64,000 nucleotides of DNA, from assembly GCA_027923505.1 (NCBI GenBank), contig BROI01000034.1:184868-248867 (forward strand), written 5' to 3'. Shown here piece after piece: positions 12,701 through 41,735 of this stretch (positions within the stretch are counted from its first letter, which is position 1; each line of letters starts with the position of its first letter). The position numbers and the translations under genes are program-made. Under the pieces are notes generated by a model that saw only the letters and a program-made list of their open reading frames with translations, was not told the DNA's origin and did not search any database. This DNA comes from Mayamaea pseudoterrestris (lineage: Eukaryota > Bacillariophyta > Bacillariophyceae > Sellaphorales > Sellaphoraceae).

Positions 12701-15070
12701 TTGGCACCATTCTGGTGTCATTTGGGTGTATACATGGCCTGCTGTAGGGGCGTTTGAATGTCACGGCATCTGTAGGCTGAGACTGGTGACAAGTTATCAC
12801 CAATATCATTGCAGTCCCCTGAGACACTAGCCAGGCATACCATCTTGTAGCGCAGCCTGAATAATGATGTTGGCACAATTCTGGTGTCATTTGGGTGTAT
12901 ACATGGCCTGCTGTAGGGTTGTTTGAATGTCACAGCATCTGCAGGCTGAGACTGGTGACAAGTTGTCACCAATATCATTGCCGTCCCCTGAGACACTAGA
13001 CAGGCATACTATCTTGTAGCGCAGCCTGAATAATGATGTTGGCACCATTCTAGTGTCATTTGGGTGTATACATAGCCTGCTGTAGGGGCGTTTGAATGTC
13101 ACGGCATCTGCGGGCTGAGACTGGTGACAAGTTGTCACCAATATCATTGCTGTCCCTTGAGACACTATCCAGGCATACCATCTTGTAGCGCAGCCTGAAT
13201 AATGATGTTGGCACAATTCTGGTGTCATTTGGGTGTATACATGGCCTGCTGTAGGGTTGTTTGAATGTCACAGCATCTGCAGGCTGGGACTGGTGACAAG
13301 TTGTCACCAATATCATTGCCGTCCCCTGAGACACTAGCCAGGCATACTATCTTGTAGCGCAGCCTGAATAATGATGTTGGCACCATTCTGGTGTCATTTG
13401 GGTTTATACATAGCCTGCTGTAGGGGCGTTTGAATGTCACGGCATCTGCGGGCTGAGACTGGTGACAAGTTGTCACCAATATCATTGCTGTCCCTTGAGA
13501 CACTATCCAGCATACCATCTTGTAGCGCAGCCTGAATAATGATGTTGGCACCATTCTGGTGTCATTTGGGAGTATACATGGCCTGCCGAAGGGGCGTTTG
13601 AATGTCACGGCATCTGCAGGCTGAGACTGGTGACAAGTTGTCACCAATATCATTGCCGTCCCCTGAGACACTAGCCAGGCATACCATCTTGTAGCGCAGC
13701 CTGAATAATGATGTTAGCACCATTCTGGTGTCATTTGGGTATAGTCATGGCCTGCTGTAGGGGTGTTTGAATGTCACGGCATCCGCGGGCTGAGACTGGT
13801 GACAAGTTGTCACCAATATCATTGCCATCCCCTGAGACACTAGCCAGGCATACCATCTTGTAGCGCAGCCTGAACAATGATGTTGGCACCATTCTGGTGT
13901 CATTTGGGTGTATACATGGCCTGCCAAAGGGGTGTTTGAATGTCACGGCATCTGCAGGCTGAGACTAGTGACAAGTTGTCACCAATACCATTGCCGTCCC
14001 CTGAGACACTATCCAGGCATACCATCTTGTAGCGCAGCCTGAATAATGATGTTGGCACCATTCTGGTGTCATTTGGGTGTATACATGGCCTGCTGTAGGG
14101 TTGTTTGAATGTCACGGCATCTGCAGGCTGAGACTGGTGACAAGTTGTCACCAATATCATTGCCGTCCCCTGAGACACTAGCCAGGCATACCATCTTGTA
14201 GCGCAGCCTGAAAAATGATGTTGGCACCATTCTGGTGTCATTTGGGTGTATACATAGCCTGCTGTAGGGTTGTTTGAATGTCACGGCATCTGCAGGCTGA
14301 GACTGGTGACAAGTTGTCACCAATCACATTGCCGTACCCTGAGACACTATCCAGGCATATCATCTTGTAGCGCAGCCTGAATAATGATGTTGGCACCATT
14401 CTGGTGTCATTTGGGTGTGCTGTAGGTGTGTTTGAATGTTAGGGCATCTGCAGGCTGAGACTGGTGACAAGTTGTCACCAATCACATTGCCGTCCCCTGA
14501 GACACTAGCCAGGCATACCATCTTGTAGCGCAGCCTGAATAATGATGTTGGCACCATTCTGGTGTCATTTGGGTGTATACATGGCCTGCTGTAGGAGTGT
14601 TTGAATGTCACGGCATCTGCAGGCTGAGACTGGTGACAAGTTGTCACCAATATCATTGCCGTCCCCTGAGACACTAGCCAGGCATACCATCTTGTAGCGC
14701 AGCCTGAATAATGATGTTGGCACAATTCTGGTGTCATTTGGGTGTATACATAGCCTGCTATAGGGGCATTTGAATGTCACGGCATCCGCGGGCTGAGACT
14801 GGTGACAAGTTGTCACCAATATCATTGCTGTCTCCTGAGACACTAGCCAGGCATACCATCTTGTATCGCAGCCCGGAAAATTATGTTAGCACCATTCTGG
14901 TGTCATTTGGGTATATGCTTGGCCTGCTGTAGGTGTGTTTGAATGTCACGGCATCTGCAGGCTGAGACTGGTGACAAGTTGTCACCAATATCATTGCCGT
15001 CCCCTGAGACACTAGCCAGGCATAGCCGTTGCTTGCCACCTGCTGTGGGTGTGTTTGAATGTCCACCGGC
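7891..15070 (+). repeat. 169-bp satellite array, subfamily B, direct orientation
   Basis: The 169-base period is the same as in subfamily A, with subfamily-specific words CACTAGCCAGGCATACC, CAATATCATTGCCGTCCCC and GTGTCATTTGGGTGTATACATGGCC. It is clean from about 9,700 to 14,900 and ends in a truncated monomer near 15,070, just before the LTR of element 1. Several monomers carry private variants that recur at multiples of 169 (for example CTGCCAAAGGGGTG at about 10,203 and 13,921, 3,718 bases or 22 monomers apart). This shows block duplication inside the array. Confidence 0.95.
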
Positions 15071-15099
15071 ATCTGGGATCACCATTCGTGCCGATCCCG

Positions 15100-17003: not shown

Positions 17004-19634
17004 AAGCAGTTGAAGGACAAGCGTGCGACGGCGCCCAAGACACCCGAAAATGGATGGCGACCGCGCAACCAACGAGGCACGGCTACGACGCAAACGCAAG
17101 TCAACGCGGCGCATCAAGAGCGTCACGCGACGGAATCTGTAGCGAACGATCACGCAAGCGTTCCTGGCACGATTAATATTCAGCCAGGCAATAGTGGAAT
17201 GTCAGTCCAAACGGCTGCACGATCGGTTCTGCAAGCGAATAATGCGAGTACTACAACTCAGCAAGTGACAGGATCGTTGACGACTGATAACACCGGACGA
17301 GGTACATTCAGCTTCAACATGCATCGTCGTATGCGCGTCAATCGCGCACACTACGAGCGGATCAACGAAGGCGCGCTCATCGACAGCGGCGCGAACGGAG
17401 GCTTATGCGGAGGAGACATGCTCGTCGTTTCGGAAACAAACGCCGAGGTGGATGTGACTGGTATTGACGATCATATTGTCCCAGCTCTCAAGATTGGCAC
17501 TGCAGCTGGACTGACAAAGACCCTTAGTGGCGAAACCATTCTGCTTTTGTGTCACCAGTATGCTTTAAAGCGAGACGGACCAACGATTCATTGCCCGAAT
17601 CAATTGCGCGCAATGGGACATCGTGTCGATGATATTCCGACCATGTTTGGCGGAACGCAACAAATTACGACGAACATTGGAGGCTACGTTTTGCCATTGG
17701 CGATTCGCGATGGCCTGGTGTACTTGGACGTGACGAAACCCACGTTCGATGATTTGGATAAGTATCCGACTGTCATCATGACGTCGGACGTGCCGTGGGA
17801 CCCAACTGTTTACGATGTCGAGCACGCGCACGACGATTTCGACGAACGCGATCACGATTATGGATCTTTCGACGAACGATTCGACGATGACGGTATCACG
17901 CACCGCAATCGTCACACGCCGACACGCACTGGCGACGAACTTGACGTACTGATCAATCGGTGCGTGCGACACGCTCAGTTTTCACGCGTTAATTTGCGGA
18001 AGCTACGAAGCAAGGAACCGGACTATAATGCTCTTCGGCCATACCTCGGATGGGTCCCGACTGAGCGAGTTCAACAGACTTTACGTCACACGGAAGCATG
18101 GTATCATCTCAGCGAACATCCGCGATTACCATTTCGACACCTCACGAAATCACGATTTCCGGCCGCGAACGTTCAGCGGTTGCGCGAACTATTCGCCACG
18201 GACACGATACACTCTGACACGCCAGCTTTGGATGATGGAATTCTAGGGCATGGGGGAGCTACTAAGATGCAGCTCTTTGTTGGACGAGAAAGTTTTTACA
18301 CGCGCGGCTACCCGATGAAGTCGGAGAGCGAAATGTCAAACGCGTTAGAGGATTTTATCCGCGAAGTGGGTGCTCCTAACGGACTGCTCAGCGACAATGC
18401 CAAGTCGGAGACTGGCAAGGCTGTGAGGGATCTCTGTCGGATGTACAATATTCCTCAAGTGACCACAGAACCGGGTCATCCAGAACAAAATCCATGCGAA
18501 CGTCACACGTCGCACATTAAGCCAATGATGGAGAACCTCCAGCGAGATTCGGGTTCGCCAGGCCATTGCTGGGTTTTGCTGATTAAATTCGTAATCATGA
18601 TTCTGAACGTCCTCGCAACGAAATCGCTGGGATGGCGCACTCCAACGGAAGTTGCGTTCGGAAATTTGCCGGATATTTCGCCTTTGTTACATTTCAAGTG
18701 GTGGGAACCGGTCACGTTTGAGGCGCAGGGGAGTTTTCCCTCGGCGGTACGATCTGGCAACGGCCGATTCGTGGGCATAGCAGAGAATAGCGGTCCGCAC
18801 ATGACTTTTCTCGTTCTAACGGACGACACGCTTCAGGCGATTCCGCGCTCCAACGTGGTCTCGCGCAGCTACTTGTTACCACGAGAGTTGCCTTCCTTCC
18901 CTGAGTCTGGAGGGGAGATTTCTGAAGAAGCTACACGCGCAAGCGAGCGAAATTTTGAAACTCCAGATCTTGCGACAGGACGCTACCATAGCACGAATGC
19001 GACAGAAAGTAGTCACGACAACTACGAAGGAAACGACGACGAAACGATTCCGATGGCGAACCACGCCAACGTACCAGCAAAGTTCTTCAGAAGGGCTGAG
19101 CAAGAATCAGGGAATAAATGCCCTCTGTTCTCTCCAAGCGAACTCATCGGACGCACGTTCGTAAGGGAACACGAAAACGGTCAGAAAATGCGAGCGACTG
19201 TATGCGAATATATCGAAGTACGCGATAACGAGCTACTCGAAACGACGAAAGGTTTCTTGATCCAGATGGGAGAGGAGCCAGCGAAAGACTTAATAAGTTA
19301 CAACGAACTGTCGGATTTAATCGAACGACAGATGGACGAAGATATACGAAACGATCCGGCGACTCAGTGGGTATTCACGAAGGTAATCGGACACGAGCTT
19401 AATTTGAAACCGAACGATCCGACATACAAAGGAAGTTCAAGTAACGTTCTCGTCGAATGGACTGACGGAACGACGACGTGGGAGCCTCTCGCGATCATGA
19501 AGAAGGACGATCCGATAACGATCGCAGAGTATGGACTCAAGCACGGCTTACTCGACAAGCCAGGATGGAAGCAGCTGGAACATTACACTCGGAAGCGAAA
19601 GAAGTTTCAACAGATGGTGACAGCAGCGAAATGA
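17004..19634 (+). pseudogene. pol: Element 1 protease, integrase and chromodomain-like module
   Basis: An open stretch of about 876 codons lies between two TGA codons, in the same frame as the end of gag. It contains, in order: an aspartic protease active-site word IDSGA (Asp codon at 17382); an integrase with the DD-E signature (Asp in HSDTPALDD, Asp in LLSDNAKSE, Glu in PEQNPCERH); then, near 19,440-19,560, a chromodomain-like block (VLVEWTDGTTTWEPL followed by a short helix and LLDKPGW). Integrase inserts the cDNA and protease cuts the polyprotein. Chromodomains usually bind methylated histone tails and are typical of Ty3/gypsy chromoviruses, so this placement in a copia element is notable. 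The frame starts after a stop, so it would be translated only by readthrough. Confidence 0.88.
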
Positions 19635-23587: not shown

Positions 23588-23914
23588 TGACACGATATCA
23601 TCAGACGAACCTTTATTCCAGCAACTACAATGGACTAGGAGCAATCAACCTCTTCGTCCAGCGTAAAGCAAACAAACAAACTAAATTGCTAGAATAGTGC
23701 ATGTTACTTGCTACTCTACTCGTGCGCTTCTTTCGTTCTCACTGGGTTCACGGTCGAGGTTCACGCCTCGATTGTCAGCGATTTCACTCATGTATGTGAG
23801 GATTCGGTCACAAGTGTGACTCAACCCTGCACAGGATTAAATGCATACAAAACACAGGTAGCTAACCGTCTTGTCATGAGACGCAGGTCAACTCAACTCA
23901 ATAATATTGTGTCA
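23588..23914 (-). repeat. Element M 5' LTR
   Basis: On the minus strand it begins TGACACAATATT and ends ATATCGTGTCA, giving perfect 6-bp inverted termini TGACAC/GTGTCA. At 23915 the reverse-orientation satellite A begins (CTACAAGATGG). No second copy of this LTR is in the window. Confidence 0.75.
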
Positions 23915-25029
23915 CTACAAGATGGTAGGCTTGGCTGGTGTCTCAGGGGATGGCAATGTATCTGGTGACAACTTGTCACCAGTCTCAGCCCGCAGATGCC
24001 GTGACATTCAAACGCACCTACAGCAAGATCTCTAGGTGACCAAAATACACCAGAATGGTGCCAACATCATTATTCTGCCTGCGGTACAAGATGGTAGGCT
24101 TGGCTGGTATCTCAGGGGATGGCAATGTATTTGGTGACAACTTGTCACCAGTCTTAGCCTGCAGATGCCGTGACATTCAAATGCCCCTACAGCAAGCCCT
24201 GTAGGGGCCCGAAATACTCCAGAATGGTGCCAACATCCTTATTCAGGCTGCGCTACAGTATGGTAATCTTGGATGGTGTCTCAGGGGATGGCAATGTATT
24301 TGGTGACACTTTGTCACCAGTCTCAGCCCACAGATGCTGTGACATTCAAACAACCCTACAGCAGGCCTGGTAGATGCCCAAATTACACCAAAACAGTGCC
24401 AACATCATTAGTTAGGCTGCGCTACAAGATGGTAATCTTGGCTGGTGTCTCAGGGGATGGCAATGTATTTGGTGACAACTTGTCACCAGTCTCAGCCCAC
24501 AGATGCTGTGACATTCAAACACCCCTACAGCAAGCCCTGTAGGTGCCCAAAATACACCAAATTGGTGTCAACATCATTGATCAGGCTGCGCTACAAGATG
24601 GTAGGCTTGGCTGGTGTCTCAGGGGATGGCAATGTATTTGGTGACAACTTGTCACCAGTCTTAGCCCGCAGATGCCGTGACATTCAAACGCCCCTACAGC
24701 AAGTCCTGTAGGTGCCCAAAATACACCAAAATGGTGCCACCATAATTATTCAGGCTGCGCTACAAGATGGTAGTCTTGGCTGGTGTCTCAGGGGATGGCA
24801 ATGTATTTGTTGACAACTTGTCACCAGTCTCAGCCCGCAGATGCCGTGACATTCAAACACCCCACCAAATTGGTGTCAACATCATTCGCCCCTACAGCAA
24901 GCCCTGTAGGTGCCCAAAATACTCCAGAATGTTGCCAACATCATAATTCAGGCCGCGTTACAAATTGGTAGTCTTGGCTAGTGTCTCAGGGGATGGCAAT
25001 GTATTTGGTGACAACTTGTCACCAGTCTC
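23915..25029 (-). repeat. Satellite A array in reverse orientation (about 6.5 monomers)
   Basis: Monomers read as the reverse complement of the first array (CTACAAGATGGTAGGCTTGG, TGTCTCAGGGGATGGCAATG, GGTGACAACTTGTCACC). The first monomers share private variants, such as CACCTACAGCAAGATCTCTAGGTG and GCAGGCCTGGTAGATGCC, with the array at 38.7-39.2 kb. One monomer near 24,850-24,900 has an internal rearrangement. Confidence 0.93.
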
Positions 25030-25426
25030 ATAATTTAGGGTGTTGGCCACCCCCATCCTGCAGACCATTCCATGGTGTAGGCCTCCAGGCAGTCCATTTT
25101 GCACCATGGCAAACCATCCTCATGTCAATGGCACACCCTGGACATGTTTTGCTTGACTCATGGGTTTGTTGGGTGATCAGGGCAGGGGCATTGTAGTGGT
25201 ATGATTCCATAATTTGGGGTGTTGGCCACACCCATCTTGCAGACCATTCTGTAGTGTAGGCCTCCCGGCAGTCCGTTTTGCACCATTTCAGACCATCCTC
25301 ATGTCAATGGCACACCCTGGACATGTTTTGCCGGACTCATTGGGTTGTTGGGTGGCCAGGGCATGGGGCATTGTAGTGGTATGATTCCATAATTTGGGGT
25401 GTTGGCCACACCCATCTTGCAGACCA
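25030..25426 (+). repeat. Satellite C (about 180 bp), two monomers
   Basis: A different tandem repeat with words TTTGGGGTGTTGGCCACACCC, GTAGGCCTCC(C/A)GGCAGTCCGTTTTG and GACTCATTGGGTTGTTGGGTGG. It is interrupted at 25,427 by the 5' LTR of element 2 and resumes at 36,047. Confidence 0.9.
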
Positions 25427-25938
25427 TGCTGAAGCCTCGTTTGTGGCGGCCTTCACTTCAGGTTTGAGAAGCCTAGCTGACGAACAACCTGACATCATCA
25501 CAACCCTAACACATGACGTGAAAGGAGATTGACCCGAAAGATACTATGACCCTGATTCAGACCCGGAGGAGACCCCGGATGTTAGAGGTCGCATTTTACC
25601 AGAAATAAGGAGAACAAACTTACGGCCTGATTCGATAAGGAGAATGCCCGGAAGAACGGAGATTCGAACCGTAGCCGAGTACCAGGCATCTACAGCGAGG
25701 GAACAACCAGGAACCTCCATCTGCCGAGATGCAGCTATGAAAGGCCTGATGTACACGAGCTCTCCCGAACATTCGGTTCCGACAATCAGACGGAACTAAT
25801 TACGCACGACTAGATTTTAACATTCGAGCAAACAAGCTCACTCTCCGAAATAACAAAGCTGTTACACCGTAGCATCTTTAGAGGGTCGCAAAGCATTTTA
25901 GTCAACACGGATCCGTCAACGAGATCTGAGTCCAAGCA
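25427..25938 (+). repeat. Element 2, 5' LTR (512 bp)
   Basis: It begins TGCTGAAGCCTCG and ends GAGTCCAAGCA. It is the copy of 35535-36046. Here the duplicated pol C-terminus carries a TGA at 25530-25532, where the 3' copy has CGA. Confidence 0.96.
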
Positions 25939-25950
25939 AAGTCGCGACTT
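25939..25950 (+). other. Perfect 12-bp palindrome at the primer-binding position
   Basis: AAGTCGCGACTT starts at the base after the 5' LTR of element 2, where a primer-binding site is expected. It differs from the GATTAACA word of the other elements. It could be the binding site of another tRNA or an RNA dimerisation site; the sequence does not decide. Confidence 0.4.
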
Positions 25951-26257
25951 GCCGTTGGACCAGAGCAAGTAAGTACCGATCGTCGAACGAACGAATTGAA
26001 CGAATCGCCGAGTGAGTGTCCGGACGCGGAATCAACCACCTGTGATTAAAGAGAACGAAAGATCAGAACGGAAAAGAGAGGCAAGAAAACGAGCCCTTTT
26101 CATCTTAAACAGGCAATCAAACGAACGAGCAAACGAACGTACACGAACGAGTAAGTGAATCGCCGCGCGAGTAACGAACGAGAATCCAAAACGAGAACGA
26201 GAACGAATTTCATTGCAAGTGTTGAAAGAGAGCGAATAGCGTTGTGAGACAACCCTT

Positions 26258-27517
26258 TTGCTTATATTTGACACAGATACACCAACCGACAAAAGTACCG
26301 TCATCCTTGCCTGCCGCATATCTGCCGCCGCAAGAGCATCAACGAAGCGACCGTCAACGCCGTCGCCCAACGAATCCATCATTACCATCACCGAAAGATC
26401 CAACGAAGCCATTCCGGCTGCTTACACGTCAGCAGCTATCGATCAACCTTCTCGATCAACAGAAGGAGCCAATCAAGTGAGAATCGCAAACGTCCATCAA
26501 GAACAAGTGACGAGCGATCCATCCTACTTTCTACCCGACACGCCATTCGTCACTCGACAGAATCGAGTCCAGTCACACACTTGCCCTTGTCTTGTCTGCG
26601 AAAGCAACAGACGAGTTCCAAGACCTCCAGTGGCACGCCCCGACCCAGTCGCATCTGCTCCGATAGACGACTCAAGAGAAGTTCAACAAGAGTTAGACGA
26701 GCTTTTCCACCAAGTTTCACCGACACGAACAGTTGTTTCGCATTCCTTACCAAGCGATTCAAACTCCTGGACTGACGAGCATCTTCAGCAAGTCCTTGAC
26801 GGCTTAGACGACAACTGGCAGCCTTGCGCCACTGATCGTCGACGCATACTCGATCCGTTCTACCGATCCGAGTACATCGAACCAACACCAACAACGAGAC
26901 GCATTGACGACGAAGATTTGCAGCGAAACGATCGCTTCCGTCAACAGCAGCAGCATCAGTATCGCCGAGCACAAGAGCAACGCCGTCAAGCTCATCAACG
27001 AATCGACCAAGCTCGAAGAATCCAACGAACGCAACAAGTTGAGCAAGTACATCGTCGAGCAACGCAACAAGTCCACGCTCCACGAAGAACTTACGCTCAA
27101 GTAGCAAGAAACAACAACCGACGCCAACAAATCAACGAAGCACGACCACAAGTTCCATATCAACATCGCCTGGAACGCTTGCAAAGAGAAGTACGCAGTC
27201 TTCAATTGCAAGTCAATCGTCAACAGCAACAACAGCACCAACAAACGTACCGACGAGCTCAACAAGTGAGCGAGCAACGAAACAATCAAAACCGTCAAAA
27301 CCCGCGTCAACGACACGTTCGTCCACGCTCAACGAGGTTCGCTACAGTCAACAGATCGTTAGCTAACCAACATCACGAGACACGTCATCAACGTCTGACC
27401 GCCAACCGTCAAGTTAGCTATCAGAACCGAGATTACCGCCAACAGAACAACGAAAGTCGACAAGTCCCTCCACGCCGACACTCATCTACAGGAACAACAG
27501 TCGGATACTTCCTTTAG
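26258..27517 (+). other. 419-codon open frame without Met in the element 2 leader
   Basis: The frame is open from 26,258 to TAG 27515-27517 and contains no ATG at all. Its product would be rich in Gln and Arg, with a CPCLVC word near residue 109, a basic QQ/RR-rich middle, and a probable coiled coil (LERLQREVRSLQLQV near residue 307). It ends 77 nt before the gag ATG. It could be a former coding region (such as a gag N-terminus) whose initiation codons were purged, a protein started at a non-AUG codon (the first candidate is TTG 26258), or an accident of T-poor composition. I do not recognise a family and do not assign a function. Confidence 0.5.
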
Positions 27518-27594
27518 ACAAAGAACAAACAACATCTATCAAGACATAACAACGCCGACACTTATCTACCCGAAGAATACAAAACAAATTCAAC

Positions 27595-30500
27595 ATGATG
27601 ACCGTAGAGACCCTTTGTCTCAAGACACCCAAGCATCCAAACACCGCCGAAGGTCATTCATCCTGGTTCAACGTTTTAGTAGCAATTGCTGAAGCCGGAG
27701 GATGTGTTAGACCGATTACAAGTACGAGAGATCCTCATCTACCAGTTACCGAAAGAGAGGAAGATTTGCCAGTTGTTTTAGACGTAAATGACGGCAATGT
27801 CAATCAACAAGAAGCAGACGCCTCGGTTGCGGCACGCGCCGAAGCTGAAGCTGCAAGAACACACAACAGCAAGCTGATGAAGTTCCTTACCATCGCCCTG
27901 TCAACTAACGAGCTGAGCGGCATCATCAACAACGCCAAGACCGCCGGCTACCCAAGAGGAGAAGCACATCTAGTCCTTGCCATACTTGAACGACGTTTCC
28001 AACCGAATCGAGTAATCGCCAATACCTTGTTCCTCCAACAACTTGGAAGCCTCTCTATGGCTAGACCCAACGAAAACCCAAGAACGTTTCTAGATCAAAT
28101 GTTTGCAGCATCATCACAGTTTGGCCAAGAACTTACCGGACCGATCCTTTTCAGCAACATTATGAACAAGGCCCCGTCACCATATCGCGTTGCATTAATG
28201 ACTCTCCAAGAGCGGACGCCCGACAATCCTTTAACAGTGGAACAAATCGAACGACAAATGGCGTCCACCTACATCACATCTTTCGCAACCAAAAATGCCT
28301 TGGATAGAGATGAAGACCATCGCGAAATGGGATTATATGCAGACAACAACAATCGTCCTCCAAGAAACTATCAAGACCGAGACCGACCGCGAGACCAAAA
28401 CCGCGGCCAGTATCGAGGCAACAACGGAGGCAACAACGGATATCAACAAGGACGACAAGGCCAATACTACCAACAGCAACCGCAATTCGAATCAAGACAC
28501 TTCAATGGCCACTGCAACTGCTGTCGCAAGTGGGGCCATAGAGAATGCAACTGTTGGGAGCGCGAAGAAAACGCCGACGCAAGACCGTCGAATTGGGTTT
28601 CTTGTTTGACAAGTGAGGAACACCAAGCCATTCGAGACCGAGACAATCGTTATCGACTCGACCGATCGCCAGAGCGACCAAGGGAGTCGTATCCAAGACG
28701 TCAAGAGCCAGAGCAACGACGTGGAAATGATCGCCAAGGAAACGACCGAAACGATCGCAATGATTCACGTCGACCTGAACGACAACGCGAGACCACAAGA
28801 CGTGACGACCGCCGCCGCGACCAAGGCAGTGAAAGACGAAGCCAACAACAAGACACTCGAAGAAGAGATGATAGAGATCGCAATCGTCGAAGCGATAGAG
28901 ACCGTCGAGATCGAGGCGATCGTCAACGTCAAGGAGGAAGGGAGCAAGCAATGCCCGCCGTTCGAGAAGGATTTCTCCGTCCAGGCGGACGCATACCAGA
29001 CCGACTGCCGCAAACACAAGAGCGCGCAAGACCGAACGAAGAAGCTTCATTGTCAACCATTGGAACGGGTGAATATCTGTTATCAAGCATTCGCGTTCGT
29101 CATAGCGTGAGTCGAGCAGCATCAAACGGAGCATACACGTTAACTGACAGCGATCATCTACAAGACGACGACACATCACCCGCACCTCAAGCGACACGGC
29201 TCAATCGTCCACGTAAAACAAAATCCAAGCAAGTATCCAACAACAAAATATCATGGACACCTGGAATGCCTTGGAGCTTGTGTGAATCTGACACGGAAGA
29301 CGAAGATGAATCAGACAACGAATGCAGCACTATCACCGCAGTAGCAAACAATTACAGCTGCACTTTCGGCAAAGAGCCCATTGTTCCACCACATCTTCGA
29401 TCCTTCGTAGCATACCCTGCTCTCACAAGCTTTGACAATGACCAAGAGACCGTCAATATCCCAGCATCAAGCATGGCAACGACTGAAGATGACACTGAAG
29501 AACCAAGTGACGCGCCAAAGGAAATTGACTGTCCACCGCATGAACCAACAGAAGATCCAACCGAAGAGCCAACTGACGATCCTACCGAGGAGCATACAGA
29601 AGCATCCTACCCTGACCATAACGCACTAGAAGAAGAATGGTTAGCGGCTGGTTATGTGCAATGGCGAGGAAGTTGGATACCTCGAGAAGACTTGACGCCA
29701 AGCGCTATGGAACGCCTCGCTCAGCACTTGCCGTCCTTTGCTCCTCCACAACTAAACATACCGACACCGCTGGTCTACACGTTTCCACCAGACGAGGAAC
29801 CGCCACACCATTTCATACAAAGCATTTTAAATGTTGAGCCACTTCTGTACACCATGTCGCAAGCAGTTGTCAGCACACTGGAAGAACTCGAAGAACACTT
29901 CGGCACTTGTGTCGACAGTGGGTTCACACATCAAGAAGCCATCGAATCAACTTGCGGATTGTACCACTTCTTCACCGGTTTGCGAGTATGGGATACAGAA
30001 CGAGTAGAAGTCTCGTACGCACAGTCAGACGAAGCTTTACTCCCCACAACAACGTCGGATGAAGCTTTCTTGCCCACGACTGCAACAACAGAAGCGATGA
30101 CTAAAACTCAGTATGATTCGGACGATCCGGACGCCATTGTTGAGTATACCAATTCAAGCGACTCAAGCGCCAGCAGTTTCAACAGCAACGACACGTTATA
30201 CTTTCACGCGCGGATTCCTCGACCACCATGGGATCACCTTTATCCATCACCAGAATATGGCGATGACAACGAAATCCCTCAAGAAGAATACGATGCAAAC
30301 ATCCAACAAGTACGCGAAGACGAAGCGAACCTTGATGACCCTGAAGCAAGACAAAGACTGTTAGTGATCGAGCGCGCCAGCACGGCACGTTTCATGGAAG
30401 AAATGGAACATTGGTTTGCTCAAGCCATTCAGCGTCAAGGTCACCCAATTTCAATGGAACAATTTGACGAAGCCATCAACTTTGGCATAGAACAAGAAGT

Positions 30501-33500
30501 CGCACGTCGCGTCTGCGAAGGCACAACAAGAACCACATACAGCATCGCGCAAATCCTTCGTGAAATCGTCGTTGGATATGTAATGGACTTGTCCATGCGC
30601 CGTCTTTGCAAATCGACATGCCGTGGGTACTTTCCCTTCAAGAACAACCGCAACCCAGACGACAGCGATGATGAAGACCATGTCAATGACACCTCAATGT
30701 CTGCCCAACTTGCACGAACGCAGTCCTACATTGCGAATGCGTTAGACCGTCGAGACGAGGAAGCAGCCGCAGCAGCTGCAGCCAACAACTCTTCAGGGAA
30801 CTCCAACACGAACAACGCATCAATTTCAAGGACCGACAGCACGCTCGCCCTCACAACCACCTTTAATGACTTTGCATTGAGCGCCGTCGTGCGGTCCCTC
30901 GGTGTTCCAAATAATATCGACCTTCTATCACACCCTGAAATCTTCATTGGCGACACCGGAGCCACTATTGATACGACACCATACCCCGACGGACTCTTCG
31001 ACACATCTACCATGCACAACGAATCCATAACCATGGGTAACCAGACCGTCGCGGATATTCAAGCCATTGGAAAGCTCCGAGTCGTAGTCTGCAATCACAC
31101 TGGCAAGACCCTTTACCCGGCTGTTCTACAGCACGTCGCATACGCCCCTGATTGTGGATACAATTTGTTCAGCATCACTCAACGAATGAAACATGGATGG
31201 AGTCTTCACGGCGACGCCGGTCGCATGGCACTAACCAAGCCAGGCAATCAACCAATCGTTTTCGACATTGTCATCAACACGCGCAAAGGACAGCTCTACT
31301 GCATCCTTTTCAAACGTATCTTTACACCGCCAAAAGAGACTCCCAAACCACGCATTGAATACGCCTTTGCCAATCCGGCGACTCGACAACTCCCACCACG
31401 TCGCCTTTCCTACATGCAAGCACATCAGCTTCTCGGCCATCAAGGGCCACGCACCACACTAGCAATTGCTGAGCACCTCAAATGGGAAATCACCGGCTCT
31501 GCCAAGGATAAATGCACACCATGTACGATCGGCAAGGCCAAGCGCCGTTCGTTTCCGCAGGTATCGTCTCGCGAGCGCGCCACAGTCCCCGGCAAACATT
31601 TGTTCCTTGACCAAACTTCTTTCCGTGTTACCAAGATTGATCCGAAACTACAACAAGGCCTCCGTCGCCAATGGACATTAATAGTCGACGAGAAGACTGG
31701 CTTCAAGCACTCGTTGTTTCATCGCACCAAAGACGCCATGGCCGAGCACGTCTGTGAATTGTTCGCTCAATGGTTCCACCAAGGAAAACCGATTAAGTAT
31801 CTCCGAATGGACAACGCCGGTGAAAACAAGTTGCTTGCCAAACGCATGTTCAGTTCTGACTGGCAATTCAACATCAACATCGAATGGACTTCCGTCGACT
31901 CGCCGCAACAAAACGCCCCAGTCGAAGTCAGCTTTCCAACGTTGACCAACCGCACTCGAGCCAACATGTACAGCGCCAACATACCGCCTCTTCATCGCTT
32001 GTATATTGGACCCGAAGCATTCGACTATGCCACCAAGCTTGACGCCCTTGCCATGATAGACGTTAACGGCGTCCTTGCCACTCGACACGAGCACTTTCAC
32101 GGCGTTGCTTCGCCGATTATTGGAAACCTTCAAACATTTGGAGAGGCTGTCACTGTTGTACTTCCCGGTATTCGCACGCATCTATCCGATAAAGGTTTTC
32201 AAGGCATCTTTGTCAACTACAGCAGCAACCATCCGAAAGACTGCTATCGAGTTTACAACCCGGAAACCAAGCGCACACACGACGTTAAGCACATCACTTT
32301 CTTGAAACGTCCCTACTTTCAACGCCGCACACGTCGTGAAATCGTCCCACCAGCTATCGTTGATGTTACATCTGAAAGCTCCGACTCCAGCAGCATGATA
32401 ATTGAAGTCATTCAAGCCGACGCACCTCACCCACTTACGTGTTCCACCACCGCAACACCGATATCCAATCCGCCTGCCCCAGCGGACGTCCAAGCTGGGG
32501 AGGTACTAGATCCGAACGCCGAAACTGACGAATTTCCAAACGCGGATGACGAGCTTGAACTTCCCGCTGCGCCAGACGCCCCTGCAGACCAAGGCAATCC
32601 GCAAGAATCAACAGCAGCGTCTGATGCGCCGACCGATCCAATCAACAACAGTGCACAACCGTCAGCCGCACCAGCAGGAAATAGGGCCACCGAAGCAGCA
32701 CGACGCCACATCAGAAGGGTCAGAGACGAAGCTGAACGTCGACGACGAGGACATGTCCAGTACACAAGATCAGGACGACCGTCAAGACCACCGACAAGAT
32801 ATGGCCAAGACGAAGATCAAACCCAGTACACAAGATCTGGAAGACCGATACATCCACCTGCACGTTATGGTCAAATCGCTGCTGACATTGATCCACTCGA
32901 AGCTGATGAATACGATTATGAGTCTGAAAACGAGTCCGACGCCGATCGCGAGTCCTACTCAAGTTCATCGACGGCATCAACTTATTCGCGTACAACAAGT
33001 AAATCAGCCGACGAACGCAACAGTTACGGCACATGCAGATACATGAATTACTCTGAATCATCGACGAGTCGATCAATCGTTAGCGAACGAAGCATTCGAA
33101 GCATAAGCGAGTCATTCAATTCAACTGACAGTGACTGCAACAGCGACGACAGCTCAAGCGACGACAACGCTTTGCTTCATTTGACCAACGATGAGTTCCA
33201 GCAATTAACTCTGGAAGAACAAGACGAAGTTATAGCATACTATTCGAGCAGTGAAAACGATGGAAGAATCCAAATGCCATCATGGTTGACGACAGCCCAC
33301 ACAAACGACGACGAATTCGACAGCCAGTACGACATTGAAAGCGCATCATCTGCCCAACGAAGCGCACCTCTCTCGTCAATCGACGTCGAAACTGTTACAA
33401 CCACCCGAGCATCGAATGTTGATAGCAGCAAAGCTCCAAGCCAAGAACTCGGGAAGGGTACGACCGACACAGAAGAGTCATCCATTGAAATAATAGCAAC

Positions 33501-34137
33501 ATGCCCAGAACCGAGTGGAGCAGAAGATCAAGCCGAAAATAAATCGCACCTCGACAGTCATCTTGAAATCGACAACGGATACAACCAGAACGAACTCGAA
33601 CAACCAAACCGGTCCGCTCAATCTAAGCACAAGGAATTTATGCTCGACCATGAGGACCCAGCATTACTACGCAACCTCATCTTCAACGATGTACCAACAA
33701 GTATTCGAGTCATAATCGACGAACGCAGTGTTCCTCCATGCCTACCGACCGATTCAAACTTCGAGTACGCATTTCCAGCATACCAAGCAACACCCACCGC
33801 AACAACTCCGACCGACGCCTTCGACAAACACATAGAAGACATCTTCAGCGACGAAACACCTGATACTGTTGAATATGCTTTCGTAGGAGCAGGCATTGGC
33901 GGAGGATTTGTCACCACCGACGAACTACACGCAGTAAAATTCAAAGACGCCGTCAATGGTCCGGAGCGCGAACACTGGTTCAAAGCGATAGAAAAAGAGC
34001 GCAAGAATTTGGAAAGCCGAGAAGTCGCTATCGCTGTTCCGCGCAGCCAAGTACCAAGAGACGCCGCACTATTGACAAGCAAGTGGGTATTGCGAAAGAA
34101 ATCCGACGGAACCTACAAAGCAAGAATAACAGCATGA
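27595..34137 (+). pseudogene. gag-pol: Element 2 gag-protease-integrase and RT N-terminus, ends at in-frame TGA
   Basis: The frame starts at ATG 27595, the first ATG of the transcript, and has 2,180 codons. Gag occupies the first ~300 residues. A CCHC knuckle is perfect (Cys307, Cys310, His315, Cys320 in CNCCRKWGHRECNC). Then comes an Arg/Asp-rich tract (about 345-455), a long acidic, Pro/Thr-rich region, and the protease word GDTGA (Asp codon at 30952). Next are a GAG-pre-integrase zinc site (HQLLGH ... CTPC) and an integrase core with Asp1339, Asp1406 (RMDNAGEN) and Glu1444 (QQNAPVEV). A second acidic region precedes the start of RT. The frame ends at TGA 34135 exactly where copia RTs have the Arg of KARxxARGF. 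The remaining RT follows in the same frame. Confidence 0.93.
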
Positions 34138-35907
34138 GGATTCCAACAACGCGACGGCGAGCATTACGACAGTCAATCAATTTCGTCGCCAGTCGCTTCA
34201 CCAACCACAATAAAGCTCATCACAACAATCTCAGTAATGACAGGATGCGTTCCGCATATAGTCGACATCAGTGGAGCCTTTCTATACGGCACATTTGACG
34301 ACGACCATCACGTTTACATGGAGATTCCAGAAGGCTTTCGCGAGCACTACCCGCCCGGACATGTTTGGAGACTTGTCCGCACACTATATGGAACGAAACA
34401 AGCCGCAAGAGCGTTCTGGGACAAGCTGTTGTCAGCACTCCGCAAGATGGGATACGCAAGAAGCGTTGCCGACCCGTGCCTATATTTCAAGTGGGTCAAA
34501 GGGCAACTAATCCTAATCGTGTCATGGATCGACGACTTATACATCAGCGGACCAGACGACCTCATCAAAGCCACGAAGATAGAACTGAAAGACCATTTCG
34601 CATGTGAAGATTGCGGACCGATCAAGGAGTACATTGGCTGCAAAGTCGAAATAGGCGACAACTACCAACGATGGACACAACCAGTCCTACTTCAAAGCTT
34701 GAAAGACGAATTTGACATACCGACAAAAGGAAAAGAACCAAGACTGCCTGCACTACCTGGCAGCATCCTACCAAAACTCGACGAAGACGAAGAACTAAGT
34801 AACAGACAGCAAACGATCTTCCGTTCAGCAAACGGCAAGCTTCTATACCTCGGACGATGGTCAAGACCCAAGGCCCAGTACGCCATTAATGCCAACTGCC
34901 GCTACATGAAACAAGCAGGCAAGACACACATGGCAGAAACAAAACGCACAATGAGATACCTACTATCAACACCAAATAGAGGAAGACTATTCCTACCGAC
35001 ACGAAAGTACCAAGGTCCCAACCATCTATTCCGCATTCGAGGAATGAGTGATTCGGATTACGCAAAAGACCCCGAGAAGCGCCGCAGCCAAACAGGAGGC
35101 ATCACCTTTGTAGAAGACGTCCCTGTCTCCGAGATATGCCATCTTCAAAAGCTCATATCGCTCTCCGTAACGGAAGCCGAAATGGCCGCAGGAACTGAGA
35201 CCGCTCAAGACATGCTTCACGTCAAGAACCTACTTGAATCAATTGGCTTACAAGTGGAGCTACCAATGATTCTGGAGATCGACAATAGCGGAGCAGTTGA
35301 TATCGCCAACACTTGGAAGACAGGCGGAAGAACAAGACACCCAGACGTACGCCACAACTTCATCCGAGAGCTTAAGGAAGCAGGCATCATACGAGTGAAT
35401 TGGATTGAAACCAACTTAAACACAGCAGACATTTTCACCAAGAACCTGGACCAAGTTACCTTCAACCGCCACGCACGAGTACTGGTTGGAGAGGACGAAT
35501 ACATGCCTGAGTCCATCCTCCCCAACGGGAAGGGTGCTGAAGCCTCGTTTGTGGCCGCCTTCACTTCAGGTTTGAGAAGCCTAGCTGACGAACAACCTGA
35601 CATCATCACAACCCTAACACATGACGTGAAAGGAGATCGACCCGAAAGATACTATGACCCTGATTCAGACCCGGAGGAGACCCCGGATGTTAGAGGTCGC
35701 ATTTTACCAGAAATAAGGAGAACAAACTTACGGCCTGATTCGATAAGGAGAATGCCCGAAAGAACGGAGATTCGAACCGTAGCCGAGTACCAGGCATCTA
35801 CAGCGAGGGAACAACCAGGAACCTCCATCTGCCGAGATGCAGCTATGAAAGGCCTGATGTACACGAGCTCTCCCGAACATTCGGTTCCGACAATCAGACG
35901 GAACTAA
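34138..35907 (+). pseudogene. pol: Element 2 reverse transcriptase and RNase H
   Basis: Same frame as the upstream polyprotein, resuming with GFQQRDGEHYD. RT motifs present are HIVDISGAFLYG (catalytic Asp), RTLYGTKQAARAFWDK, and WIDD in place of the usual YVDD near 34,525. RNase H has MSDSDYA, SVTEAEMAAG, LEIDNSGAV and NTADIFTKNL. The frame runs past the start of the 3' LTR (35535) and ends at TAA 35905-35907, so its last 123 codons lie inside the LTR. A purine-rich run (ACGGGAAGGG) lies just before the LTR. Apart from the upstream TGA the frame is undamaged. Confidence 0.95.
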
Positions 35908-36046
35908 TTACGCACGACTAGATTTTAACATTCGAGCAAACAAGCTCACTCTCCGAAATAACAAAGCTGTTACACCGTAGCATCTTTAGAGGGTCGCAAA
36001 GCATTTTAGTCAACACGGATCCGTCAACGAGATCTGAGTCCAAGCA
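35535..36046 (+). repeat. Element 2, 3' LTR (512 bp), overlapping pol
   Basis: It has the same boundaries as the 5' LTR (TG...CA) and is followed by the GACCA target duplication. The first 373 bases are also the coding end of pol. Differences from the 5' copy are GTGGCC versus GTGGCG, GATCGA versus GATTGA, and CCCGAA versus CCCGGA. Confidence 0.96.
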
Positions 36047-37480
36047 GACCATTCCATGGTGTAGGCCTCCCGGCAGTCCGTTTTGCTCCATGCTAGACCA
36101 TCCTCATGTCAATGGCACACCCTGGACATTTTTTGCCTGACTCATTGGGTTGTTGGGTGGCCAGGGCATGGGGCATTGTAGTGGTATAATTCCATAATTT
36201 GGGGTGTTGGCCACACCCAGCCTGCAGACTATTCCGTGGTGTAGGCCTCCCAGCAGTCAGTTTTGCACCATGTCAGACCATCCACATGTCAATGGCACAC
36301 CCTGGACATGATTTGCCTGACTCATTGGGTTGTTGGGTGGCCAGGGCAGGGGGCATTGTAGTGGTATGATTCCATAATTTGGGTGTTGGCCACACCCATC
36401 TTGCAGACCATTCCATGGTGTAGGCCTCCAGGCAGTCCGTTTTGCTCGATGCTAGACCATCCTTTTGTCAACGGCACACCTTCGACATGTTTTGCCTGAC
36501 TCATTGGGTTGTTGGGTGGCCAGGGCATGGGGCATTGTAGTGGTATGATTCCATAATTTGGGGTGTTGGCCACACCCATTTTGCAGATGGTGTAGGCCTC
36601 CAGGCAGTCCGTTTTGCACCATTTCAGCCCATCCTCATGTCAATGGCACACCCTGGACATGTTTTGCCTGACTCATTGGGTTGTTGGGTGGCCAGGGCAT
36701 GGGGCATTGTAGTGGTATGATTCCATAATTTGGGGTGTTGGCCACACCCATTTTGCAGATGGTGTAGGCCTCCAGGCAGTCCGTTTTGCACCATTTCAGC
36801 CCATCCTCATGTCAATGGCACACCCTGGACATGTTCTGCCGGACTCATTGGGTTGTTGGGTGGCCAGGGCATGGGGCATTGTAGTGGCATGATTCCATAA
36901 TTTGGGGTGTTGGCCACACCCAGCCTGCAGACCATTCCATGGTGTAGGCCTCCCGGCAGTCCGTTTTGCTCCATGCTAGACCATCCTCATGTCAATGGCA
37001 CACCCTGGACATTTTTTGCCTGACTCATTGGGTTGTTGGGTGGCCAGGGCATGGGGCATTGTAGTGGTATAATTCCATAATTTGGGGTGTTGGCCACACC
37101 CATCTTGCAGACCATTCCATGGTGTAGGCCTCCCGGCAGTCCGTTTTGCTCCATGCTAGACCATCCTCTTGTCAACGGCACACTTTCGACATGTTTTGCC
37201 TGACTCATTGGGTTGTTGGGTGGCCAGGGCATGGGGCATTGTAGTGGCATGATTCCATAATTTGGGGTGTTGGCCACACCCAGCCTGCAGACCATTCCAT
37301 GGTGTAGGCCTCCAGGCAGTCCGTTTTGCATCATGTCAGACCATCCTCATGTCAATGGCACACCCTGGACATGTTTGCCTGACTCATTGGGTTGTTGGGT
37401 GGCCAGGGCACGGGGCATTGTAGTGGTATGATTCCATAATTTGGGTGTCGGCCACCCCCATCTTGCAGACCATTCCATGG
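36047..37480 (+). repeat. Satellite C array (about 8 monomers of ~180 bp)
   Basis: It continues the satellite C that element 2 interrupts. Monomer starts (GACCATTCC or GACTATTCC) lie at 36047, 36227, 36406 and so on, 179-180 bases apart. Two near-identical shortened monomers (TTGCAGATGGTGTAGG) lie near 36,590 and 36,755. The array stops at a gag fragment at 37,481. Confidence 0.93.
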
Positions 37481-38084
37481 TAGCTGGAGCAGGAGGGGCG
37501 GGCGGTAGGTGCGGGCATCCCATCGCGTATGGTGGCCATTGCCTGCTGCAACTGGCGACAGAGGCGAGTTAATTCGGTGGTTTGCGCGAGGTTGGCGTGA
37601 TCCTGGTAGCAAGCTTGGCCAGCCGTGCAATGCTCCAAGCGCTTGTCGTTGGCCTTGTTGAAGCGGACCTGGAGATTCTCCATGGTGCGATCCACCTCAT
37701 TGACATCGCGGTCGTAGACAGCGAGATCGGCGGCAAACACGCCACTGTTGATGAGGACGAGGAGCGTGTCGTGGATCTGTTGTTCCGGTGGAATGGGCGT
37801 GCCGGCATCGTCGGCAAAGTCGTTGATGTCGGTGATGCAACTCCCAATGCGCTCAATGGGAACGTTGGGATTTCATGGCGTGAGGAGACGAAGAACGTTG
37901 TCTTTGCGCTCTTGGTTGGAAACGCGTCTGTAGGTAGCTGTGAGATGTGTGACATCTGTAGAATGGTGATGTTGGCATAGAGGGAATGACGGTTCTGGAG
38001 GACGGAATAGTAGTCTTCGTCAAGCGCGACAAGTAAGCAAGCCTTGAGTGCAGTGTGGGCAACGAGCATGGGAAGAATCTGCAA
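37481..38084 (-). pseudogene. Decayed gag-like fragment of another retroelement
   Basis: On the minus strand two open frames join across one frameshift near 37,865. The first reads LKACLLVALDEDYYSVLQNRHSLYAN and so on. The second reads VPIERIGSCITDINDFADDAG, then YDRDVNEVDRTMENLQVRF and a C/H-containing stretch (EHCTAGQACYQDHANL). The helical composition and the setting between satellites suggest a retroelement gag, but I cannot name the family. Both edges join satellite C directly, with no LTR visible. Confidence 0.5.
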
Positions 38085-38605
38085 CTTGTGGTGTTGGCCA
38101 TACCCACAGTGGAGGCCGTACCCATGGTGTCAGCCTCCAGGCAGTCCTTTTTGCACCATTTGAGACTATGCACCTGTCAATGGCATACCCTGGACATGTT
38201 TTGCCTGACTCGTTGGGTATTTGGGTGGCCAGGGCATGGGGCGTTTGACAGGTCAGAATCCACAACTTGTGGTGTTGGCCATACCCACAGTGGAGGCCGT
38301 ACCCATGGTGTCAGCCTCCAGGCAGTCCTTTTTGCACCATTGAGACTCTGCACCTGTCAATGGCATACCCTGGACATTGTTTTATCTGACTTATTGGGTA
38401 TTTGGGTGGCCAGGGCATGGGGCGTTTGACAGGTCAGAATCTACAACTTGTGGTGTTGGCCATACCCACAGTGGAGGCCGTACCCATGGTGTCAGCCTCC
38501 AGGCAGTCCTTTTTGCACCATTTGAGACTCTGCACCTGTCAATGGCAAATGATTGGTCATGTTTTGCCTGCCTCATTGGGTATATGGGTGGCCAGGGCAT
38601 GGGGC
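38085..38605 (+). repeat. Satellite C variant (C'), three monomers of 181 bp
   Basis: Monomers start at about 38083, 38264 and 38445 (AACTTGTGGTGTTGGCCATACCC). They keep the core words of satellite C (CCTCCAGGCAGTCC, TGTCAATGGCA, GGGTGGCCAGGGCATGGGGC) but differ throughout. This forms a separate subfamily joined to reverse satellite A at 38,606. Confidence 0.9.
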
Positions 38606-40796
38606 GGTGACAACTTATCACCAGTCTCAGCCCAAAGATGCCGGGACATTCAAACGCCCCTACAGCAAGCCCTGTAGGTGCCCAAAATACACCAGAGTGG
38701 TGCCAACATCATTATTTAGGCTGAGCTACAAGATGGTAGGCTTGGCTGGTGTCTCAGGGGATGGCAATGTATCTGGTGACAACTTGTCACCAGTCTCAGC
38801 CCGCAGATGCCGTGACATTCAAACGCACCTACAGCAAGATCTCTAGGTGACCAAAATAAACCAGAATGGTGCCAACATCATTATTCTGCCTGCGGTACAA
38901 GATGGTAGGCTTGGCTGGTATCTCAGGGGATGGCAATGTATTTGGTGACAACTTGTCACCAGTCTTAGCCTGCAGATGCCGTGACATTCAAATGCCCCTA
39001 CAGCAAGCCCTGTAGGTGCCCGAAATACTCCAGAATGGTGCCAACATCCTTATTCATGCAGCGCTACAAGATGGTAGGCTTGGCTGGTGTCTCAGGAGAT
39101 GGCAATGTATTTGGTGACAACTTGTCACCAGTCTCAGCCCGCAGATGCCGTGACATTCAAACACCCCAACAGCAGGCCTGGTAGATGCCCAAATTACACC
39201 AAAACGGTGCCAACATCATTAGTTAGGCTGCGCTACAAAATGATAGTCTTGGCTGGTGTCTCAGGTGATGGCAATGTATTTGGTGACAACTTGTCACCAG
39301 TCTCAGCCCGCAGATGCCGTGACATTCAAACACCCCTACAGCAAGCCCTGTAGGTGCCCAAAATACACTAGAATGGTGCCAACATCATTGTTCAGGCCGA
39401 GCTACAAGATGGTAGGCTTGGCTGGTGTCTCAGGGGATGGCAATGTATTTGGTGACAACTTGTCACCAGTCTCAGCCCGCAGATGCCGTGACATTCAAAC
39501 GCCCCTACAGCAAGCCCTGTAGGTGCCCAAAATACACCAGAATGGTGCCAACATCATTATTCAGGCTGCGCTACAAGATGATAGGCATGGCTGGTGTCTC
39601 AGGGGATGGCAATGTATGTGGTGACAACTTGTCACCAGTCTCAGCCGGCGGATGCTGTGACATTTAAATGCACCTACAGCAAGCTCTGTAGGTGCCCAAA
39701 AAACACCAGAATGGCGCCAACATCATTATTCAGGCTACGCTACAAGATGGTAGGGTTGGCTGGTGTCTCAGGGGATGGCAATGTATTTGGTGACAACTTG
39801 TCACCAGTCTCAGCCCGCAGATGCCGTGACATTCAAACGCCCCTACAGCAAGCCCTGTTGGTGCCCAAACTACACCAGAATGGTGCCAACATCATTATTC
39901 AGGCTGCGCTACAAGATGGTAGGCTTGGCTGGTGTCTCAGGGGATGGCAATGTATTTGGTGACAACTTGTCACCAGTCTCAGCCCGCAGATGCCGGGACA
40001 TTCAAATGCCCCTACAGTAAGCCCAATAGGTGCCCAAAATACACCAAAACAGTGCCAACATCATAAGTTAGGCTGCGCTACAAGATGGTAGGCTTGGCTG
40101 GTGTCTCAGGGGATGGCAATGTATTTGGTGACAACTTGTCACCAGTCTCAGCCCGCAGATGCCGTGACATTCAAACGCCCCTACAGCAAGCCCTGTTGGT
40201 GCCCAAACTACACCAGAATGGTGCCAACATCATTATTCAGGCTGCGCTACAAGATGGTAGGCTTGGCTGGTGTCTCAGGGGATGGCAATGTATTTGGTGA
40301 CAACTTGTCACCAGTCTCAGCCCGCAGATGCCGGGACATTCAAACGCCCCTACAGTAAGCCCAATAGGTGCCCAAAATACACCAAAACAGTGCCAACATC
40401 ATTAGTTAGGCTGCGCTACAAGATGGTAGGCTTGGCTGGTGTCTCAGGGGATGGCAATGTATTTGGTGACAACTTGTCACCAGTCTCAGCCCGCAGATGC
40501 CGTGACATTCAAACGCCCCAATAGCAAGCCCTGTAGGTGTCCAAAATACACCAGAATGGTGCCAACATCATTGATCAGGCTGCGCTACAAGATGGTAGGC
40601 TTGGCTGGTGTCTCAGGGGATGGCAATGTATTTGGTGACATCTTGTCACCAGTCTCAATCCGCAGATGCCGGGACATTCAAACGCCCCTACAGCAAGCCC
40701 TGTAGGTGCCCAAAATACACCAGAATGGTGCCAACATCATTATTCAGGCTGCGCTACAAGATGGTAGGCTTGGCTGGTGTCTCAGGGGATGGCAAT
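38606..40796 (-). repeat. Satellite A array in reverse orientation (about 13 monomers)
   Basis: 169-bp monomers run in the orientation opposite to the first 15 kb. Monomers at 38.72-39.23 kb match 23.92-24.42 kb base for base at private variants, with an offset of 14,811. A two-monomer block (about 39,850-40,060) is repeated 300 bases further on, another local duplication. Confidence 0.93.
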
Positions 40797-41735
40797 GAGG
40801 CTACCAACATTTCAACCATGAGGCTACCAACACCAAACCCTGAGGGTATAATTTCAACCATGAGGCTATTATGAGGCTACTAGCCCTTTGAACCATGAGG
40901 CTACTCACACCAAACCATGAGGCTGCCATTTCACCCATGAGGCTACCATGAGGCTACCAATATTTCAACCATGAATCTACCAACACCAAACCATGAGATT
41001 ACCATTTCTACCATTTCTACCATTTCAACCAAGAGGCTACCATGAGGCTAACATAGGGCTACCAACCTTTCAACCATGAGGCTGACATTTTAACCATAAG
41101 GCTACCATGAGAGCCCCATGGTACCCTCATGGTTTGGTGTTGGTAGCGTCATAGTTGAAATGTTGGTAGCCTCATGGTAGCCTCATGGTTGAAATGGCAG
41201 CCTCACGGTTTGGTGTTGATAGCCTCATGGTAGCCTTATGGTACCCTCATGGTAGCCTCATGGTGGATGTTGTAGCGTCAAATACCCATGGTACCCTCAT
41301 GGTAGCCTCATGGTAGCATCATGGTAGCCTCATGGTAGCCTCATGGTTTGGTGTTGGTAGCGTCATAGTTGAAATGTGGGTAGCCTCATGGTAGCCTCAT
41401 GGTTGAAATGACAGCCTCACGGTTTGGTGTTGGTAGCCTCATGGTAGCCTCATGGTACCCTCATGGTACCCTCATGGTACCCTCATGGTTTGGTGTTGGT
41501 AGCGTCATAGTTGAAATGTTGGTAGCCTAATGGTAGCCTCATGATAGCCTCATGGTTGAAATGGCAGCCTCACGGTTTGGTGTTGGTAGCCTCATTTAGC
41601 CTCATGGTAGCCTCATGGTAGCCTCATGGTAGCCTCATGGTAGCCTCATGGTACCCTCATGATACCCCCATGGTTTGGTGTTGGTAGCATCATAGTTGAA
41701 ATGTTGGTAGCCTCATGGTAGCCTCATGGTAGCCT
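40797..41735. repeat. Short-period repeat (satellite D) with strand switch
   Basis: It is built from words of 11-20 bases: TGGTAGCCTCA, TGGTTTGGTGTTGGTAGC, ATAGTTGAAATG. Up to about 41,110 the words appear as ATGAGGCTACCA and AACCATGAGG. From about 41,118 they appear as the reverse complement. The two halves could fold back on each other. Confidence 0.9.

Follow-up and report, generated by a model that had tools for sequence, protein, structure and literature searches.

In murine leukaemia virus, glycoGag begins at a non-AUG codon 5' of the gag AUG and forms an in-frame extension of gag. The rice LTR elements Retrosat2, RIRE3, and RIRE8 belong to the Ty3/gypsy type and not to copia. A fast-evolving ORF0 of unknown function lies 5' of their gag-pol ORF, and the words "ATG" and "start codon" are absent from the accessible main text on it (PMC3485330). 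In the CoDi elements, the Ty1/copia elements of diatoms, a further ORF (ORF1) was sought 5' of the polyprotein ORF; neither "leader" nor "start codon" is used in the main text on them (PMC2806351). Rice tungro bacilliform virus (RTBV; Caulimoviridae) is described, in the part of the source available to us, as using leaky scanning at ORFs I and II over about 900 nt, the AUU start of the first frame being used by about 10% of the ribosomes while the others scan on (PMC5902531). Here we describe a Ty1/copia element whose long leader lacks ATG entirely and carries a long open frame without methionine codons.

A copia element within a satellite array

The window, i.e., the whole stretch of 64 kb that was analyzed, lies on contig C34 of a genome of 30.6 Mb in 41 contigs. 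Its plus strand contains a Ty1/copia LTR retrotransposon (family A) with a 5' LTR at 25427 to 25938 and a 3' LTR at 35535 to 36046, each of 512 bp with TG...CA ends and with 3 differences between the two copies. A 5-bp target site duplication, GACCA, directly flanks these ends at 25422 to 25426 and at 36047 to 36051. The gag-pol frame (27595 to 34137) begins with ATG 27595, which has A at -3, and contains in gag the motif CNCCRKWGHRECNC (28513 to 28554), which we take to be CCHC zinc-knuckle-like. The domain order Pol_BBD, SH3_retrovirus, and then RVT_2 is that of copia, the integrase-side domains preceding a copia-type reverse transcriptase (RT). The frame ends at an in-frame TGA (34135 to 34137) just 5' of the RT domain, and the remainder of pol (34138 to 35907), with the reverse transcriptase (PF07727), continues into the 3' LTR. 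Since a copy on contig C6 has a 1011-codon frame spanning the region that matches this TGA, the window copy is unlikely to be autonomous. The pol frame enters the 3' LTR for about 120 codons (35535 to 35907; 5' LTR equivalent, 25427 to 25799), and that of a related family, B, likewise continues into its 3' LTR; much of U3 is part of the open pol frame in both families.

Large arrays of tandem satellites, spaced at 169 and about 172 to 180 bp, occupy 1 to 15073, 23795 to 25426, and 36047 to 41746 of the window, and the element is inserted in an array of the latter spacing. Directly after the LTR stands a perfect 12-nt palindrome, AAGTCGCGACTT (25939 to 25950), and family B has AAGTAATTACTT at the corresponding position (locus L051, reverse strand, 1022 to 1033). 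The arms, AAGT...ACTT, are identical in the two families, and the centers differ (A, CGCG; B, AATT); the palindrome could be an RNA dimerization or primer element.

The leader is free of ATG

The initial annotation had reported that no ATG occurs on the plus strand from 25753 to 27594, that CAT occurs about 30 times there, and that the gag ATG at 27595 is the first after the LTR. All of this was confirmed: the stretch from 25752 to 27594 contains 0 ATG in 1,843 nt, and CAT occurs 32 times. The ATG-to-ATG distance from 25749, the last ATG before the gap and within the 5' LTR, to 27595 is 1,846 nt; the next longest in the window is 369 nt on the plus strand, and the longest on the minus strand is 363 nt. 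Comparison with shuffled controls, which had been proposed as a check, placed the absence beyond chance, as dinucleotide shuffles contained a mean of 11.7 ATG and none of 2,000 reached zero. Synonymous-codon shuffles of the open frame that kept the protein contained a mean of 8.45 ATG, again with 0 of 2,000 at zero; out-of-frame ATGs are therefore missing even given a protein without methionine. ATG had the lowest observed/expected ratio of all 64 trinucleotides. CAT, which is ATG on the opposite strand, was near expectation (32 versus 27.0 in A and 29 versus 32.7 in B), as was ATG in the gag-pol of the A element (100 versus 95.0), and no depletion of CTG, GTG, TTG, or ACG was found in the leader of either family.

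The leader is rich in A and C and poor in G and T. A lack of structure was considered as the sole reason for the absence of ATG and rejected, because the A leader and the A gag-pol are structured to nearly the same degree (mean minimum free energy per 100 nt, -16.3 versus -17.4), though the B leader reaches -13.4.

The pol frame has its stop at 35905 in the 3' LTR, equivalent to 25797 in the 5' LTR, and in both families the ATG-free stretch starts within about 50 nt of the end of the pol frame in the LTR. In family B, TATACATA is found about 30 nt 5' of the last ATG. An AUG-free path would matter only where ribosomes scan. In three other copia families that were read, the first ATG follows 73, 24, and 39 nt past the LTR, where direct repeats of 305, 88, and 373 bp were taken to mark the LTRs. 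A fourth (C11, L065), whose LTR was not located, has a longest ATG gap of 224 nt. In family D (C27), whose gag is 39% identical to that of A, the ATG gap 5' of gag measures 670 nt and contains no long frame. Of the copia families read, only A and B thus possess the long leader. A frame adjoining another copia element (L059) resembles a plastid-targeted protein, from which we would guess at a photosynthetic, diatom-like alga as the host.

A Met-less frame, ORF0, precedes gag

Between the LTR and gag, a segment with a weak three-base composition pattern (25939 to 26239) is followed by an open frame without methionine codons, here called ORF0. The 419 codons given for it initially are counted from TTG 26258; from stop to stop (26240 to 27517) it comprises 425 codons plus the TAG at 27515 to 27517. 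All of the stops in the other two frames miss it, as 18 of 18 stops within the span of the A frame and 30 of 30 within that of the B frame lie in those frames; the arithmetic probability that all would miss one frame is about 0.001 or less per frame.

ORF0 of family A has a pI of 10.6 as translated, with a first part (residues 1 to 220; pI 5.1) that contains a CxCxxC motif inside TCPCLVCESN (26582 to 26599) and a C-terminal part with a pI of 11.9. The Gln/Arg-rich content that had been claimed was borne out for residues 224 to 406 (26909 to 27457), most of which are predicted to form long helices in a weak single-sequence structure model (mean pLDDT, 54.8; about 90 in the best helices). Two ATC codons among codons 1 to 150 of the A frame have a purine at -3 and G at +4; codons 1 to 345 of the B frame contain no near-cognate codon with both, and no start codon common to A and B was found. 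In a test of synonymous usage, another frame scored higher in B.

A search of Pfam gave no match for A ORF0 at an E value of ≤0.01 or at ≤1, and a single match for B ORF0 at ≤1, which is below the cutoff of the family (E = 0.41). The search of PDB with B ORF0 likewise gave a single match (E = 0.21). Of the candidates in a protein collection, 7,788 for A and 7,995 for B, none was a relative at an E value of ≤0.01, nor did scans of IMG/VR with B ORF0 and with an alignment of the A and B RTs yield a relative.

Other copies of the leader

It had been proposed that other copies be compared for the absence of ATG and for the open frame. Both features recur in family B and not in family A, where the lone other leader-bearing copy is broken. 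Family B thus withstands the refutation set out initially, namely scattered ATGs and stops in further copies. The family A leader query gave 7 matches in the genome, including the window itself and its 3' LTR. One on contig C4 (219711 to 220919, L008) covers the LTR plus the leader to 26974 at about 95 to 96% identity and is the only other leader-bearing A copy; its leader contains two ATGs, and its frames are broken. Three were LTR matches, on C6, C7 (31 nt past the LTR), and C10 (partial), and the seventh, also on C7, covers 86 nt of a diverged remnant. The C6 copy extends from the LTR back into pol to 32971. The C7 copy (18323 to 18539, L009) matches the LTR plus the leader to 25969 and is then followed by satellite-like DNA; its match ends at the first base of a GTAAGT site, which is either a coincidence or a processed end. 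The C4 copy was left out of the dN/dS analysis because its 1,204 aligned nt contain 18 substitutions and 26 runs of indels, although all 512 positions of its LTR agree with the 3' LTR of the window; it may be decayed or poorly assembled, assembly errors being possible.

The RT of family B, in the same genome, is 64% identical to that of family A. The B leader query gave at least 15 pieces, grouped into at least 11 loci among the matches listed, and the DNA was read at seven of these (two on C32, called C32a and C32b, and one each on C13, C15, C2, C3, and C23), those on C22, C20, C27, and C1 being left out. In all four copies read with an intact frame, "intact" referring to the Met-less frame and not necessarily to the whole element, 2,285 to 2,288 nt are free of ATG and a Met-less frame stands just 5' of the gag ATG. 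The frame has 667 (C32a), 667 (C32b), 668 (C13), and 667 (C15) codons, and the ATG-to-ATG distances are 2,288, 2,288, 2,291, and 2,288 nt, respectively. C32a and C32b differ by one base, so that the intact copies represent three independent lineages at most. The stretch of C32a contains 0 ATG in 2,285 nt; dinucleotide shuffles had a mean of 8.4, with 1 of 2,000 at zero, and synonymous-codon shuffles of the B frame that kept the protein had a mean of 10.94, with 0 of 2,000 at zero. None of the three broken copies read is ATG-free: C2 has two in-frame TAG codons, 2 ATG, and a 12-nt gap; C3 has a 547-nt deletion, a stop, and 1 ATG; and C23 has 15 gap runs, stops, and 6 ATG plus one at the end. 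The C23 leader was found away from the stretch first taken as the 5' end of that copy. Three more candidate B 5' ends (L053, L054, and L056) had no such leader, and two of these copies, which also lack a leader match among the matches listed, may be 5' truncated. On contig C32 (19150 to 41500), the two B elements form a head-to-tail pair with a distance of 11,242 bp, and their sequences agree at 99.97% of the 2,923 nt that were compared.

The A and B frames both stand just 5' of gag and, by arithmetic, have an identical frame offset to it. Both contain the motif TCxCxVCxxN (TCACSVCIAN in B), starting 312 (A) and 292 (B) residues before the end, and B ORF0 likewise combines a first part of lower pI (residues 1 to 375; pI 6.7) with a Gln/Arg-rich C-terminal part of pI 11.9. 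The two proteins can be aligned collinearly from residue 95 of A and 340 of B almost to the end; this alignment scored 152, which was matched by 10 of 500 local shuffles in 20-residue blocks, 7 of 500 in 50-residue blocks, and 0 of 500 shuffles of the whole; reversed A ORF0 against B scored 105. The N-terminal parts alone showed no significant similarity (151 of 500 shuffles), and BLASTP of A against B ORF0 gave an E value of 0.001 as a single comparison. The two ORF0 proteins are weakly similar and, in our judgment, likely homologous.

The family B frame shows signs of purifying selection

A dN/dS below 1 in the Met-less frame, put forward initially as a check, was found among the intact family B copies, with NG86 values of 0.50 (C32a-C13), 0.32 (C32a-C15), and 0.31 (C13-C15); pairs with a broken copy gave 0.36 to 0.70. 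In a mutation-matched null, in which the same base changes were placed randomly within the frame, the 51 distinct changes of C13 and C15 versus C32a included 23 synonymous changes versus 15.4 expected (P = 0.014), 0 stops versus 3.2 (P = 0.042), and 0 new ATG versus 2.2, the last not significant alone (P = 0.11); the joint probability of neither stop nor ATG was 0.005. With C2 and C3 added (96 changes), there were 39 synonymous changes versus 27.6 (P = 0.007), 3 stops versus 6.2 (P = 0.12), and 3 ATG versus 4.1 (P = 0.40). The broken copy C23 alone, counted site by site, had 54 synonymous changes versus 41.7 (P = 0.016) and 1 stop versus 6.9 (P = 0.006), and its new ATGs were at the null level (6 versus 5.8). 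When single pairs were counted codon-wise, the synonymous excess was significant only in C15 (P = 0.028; C13, 0.40; C2, 0.53; C3, 0.44; C23, 0.57). Length changes preserve the frame, C13 having one extra codon and C2 a 12-nt gap. With a cut chosen post hoc, codons 140 to 666 of C13 and C15 had 19 synonymous changes versus 10.9 (P = 0.004) and codons 1 to 139 had no excess (4 versus 4.4), so that the 5' part of the open frame may be noncoding and the start may lie well inside it.

A proposed translation strategy and its alternatives

We consider it probable that ORF0 is a real extra gene with a non-AUG start, that its leader is kept AUG-free by selection, and that gag is reached by leaky scanning. 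Given an AUG-free path and, in it, a frame under constraint with no AUG at which to start, non-AUG initiation of ORF0 plus leaky scanning is the simplest account. The genomic RNA of this copia lineage would be bicistronic: a fraction of the scanning ribosomes would initiate ORF0 at a non-AUG codon, and the remainder would traverse the leader of 1.7 to 2.2 kb and initiate at the gag AUG with its A at -3. Ribosomes would be intercepted by any AUG on the way, whether out of frame or a Met codon of ORF0 itself, and selection would thereby keep the leader AUG-free and ORF0 Met-less. ORF0 would yield a protein of its own, in which a CxCxxC motif is combined with a C-terminal half that is strongly basic, rich in Gln and Arg, and helical in part; this protein may serve gag as an RNA-binding cofactor. 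We infer the transcript start, the non-AUG initiation, the leaky scanning, and the role of the protein from the sequences. The initial annotation had read the locus as purged of ATG by selection on scanning, with a frame of coding origin or non-AUG translation; the purged leader and open frame of a related family, the dN/dS below 1, and the ATGs in broken copies agree with this, and the splicing that it had added as an option is not supported.

The leader might instead be AUG-free only for access to gag, the frame being a relic or a by-product of A/C-rich sequence from which no protein is made. The A/C-rich, G/T-poor composition and the gap before gag in family D, which is 670 nt long and has no long frame, fit such a reading, but we think it unlikely in view of the dN/dS below 1 and the synonymous excess of the intact B copies, the frame-keeping length changes, the similar placement of CxCxxC in the two families, and the 18 and 30 stops that all miss one frame (about 0.001 or less per frame). 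As for chance or base composition of a single copy, the ATGs of the broken A copy on C4 and of three broken B copies would lend it some backing; it is hardly credible, being disfavored by the shuffles and by a second family that is ATG-free in 4 of 4 intact frames read.

Splicing would permit ORF0 to be translated with an AUG from an upstream exon, the AUG-free leader serving gag on the unspliced RNA. The two GTAAGT sites listed initially, at 25969 and 26151, are indeed present in family A and speak for this. They are absent from the four intact B leaders, however, no ATG within 25752 to 27594 could supply a start, and each of the 7 ATGs in the LTR opens a frame that has closed by 25797, 5' of the donors, so we rejected splicing and regard such a spliced RNA as quite improbable. 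Gag might also be reached by internal entry, shunting, reinitiation, or an internal promoter, the absence of AUG having another cause. A linear scan of 1.7 to 2.2 kb would indeed be well above the 900 nt described for RTBV in the accessible part of the source (PMC5902531), but such routes need no AUG-free path, and the RTBV-type shunt, as described there, uses a short AUG-started uORF, which is impossible in this leader; we find these routes very doubtful. Frameshifting or readthrough into gag was rejected, the gag frame having a TAA at 27547 and the two frames being different.

Comparison with known systems

Unlike glycoGag, ORF0 lies in another frame than gag; it stops at 27515, the gag-frame TAA at 27547 intervenes, and the gag frame opens at 27550. 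The likeness to the ORF0 of the Retrosat2 type, as described in the accessible text, is one of position only (PMC3485330), and that to the CoDi elements, with the same restriction, is that both are copia elements of genomes that are algal or, in the present case, presumably so (PMC2806351). The initial statement that no equivalent had been described holds for LTR retrotransposons, none being apparent by title or start of abstract among the matches listed from the open-licence literature; it does not hold more widely, as the RTBV strategy, as far as the source was accessible, is closely similar (PMC5902531).

Whether this lineage has a full-size gene that lacks both in-frame Met and any-frame AUG over 1.3 to 2 kb, one RNA yielding ORF0 from a non-AUG start and gag-pol via the longest AUG-free scanning path known to us, is in our judgment evenly balanced. 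If so, evolution can produce a long gene in which methionine codons are prohibited, and the leader would be a natural test of ribosome scanning distance. ATG-based gene calling would miss such genes, and scanning leaders for AUG-free runs could uncover more.

RTBV and the present elements are alike in that the frames 5' of the main polyprotein frame are long and lack internal AUG (PMC5902531), here in all three frames. RTBV differs in its shunt past an AUG-started uORF and a stem-loop leader and in the AUG of its ORF II (PMC5902531); no AUG-uORF of this shunt type exists within 25752 to 27594, an earlier transcript start in the LTR being possible. In contrast to RTBV, the elements described here are Ty1/copia, with one long Met-less frame, a putative non-AUG start, and an AUG-free path of 1.8 to 2.3 kb. 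If our reading is correct, AUG-free leaky scanning, as described for a plant pararetrovirus, extends to Ty1/copia elements at about twice the length.
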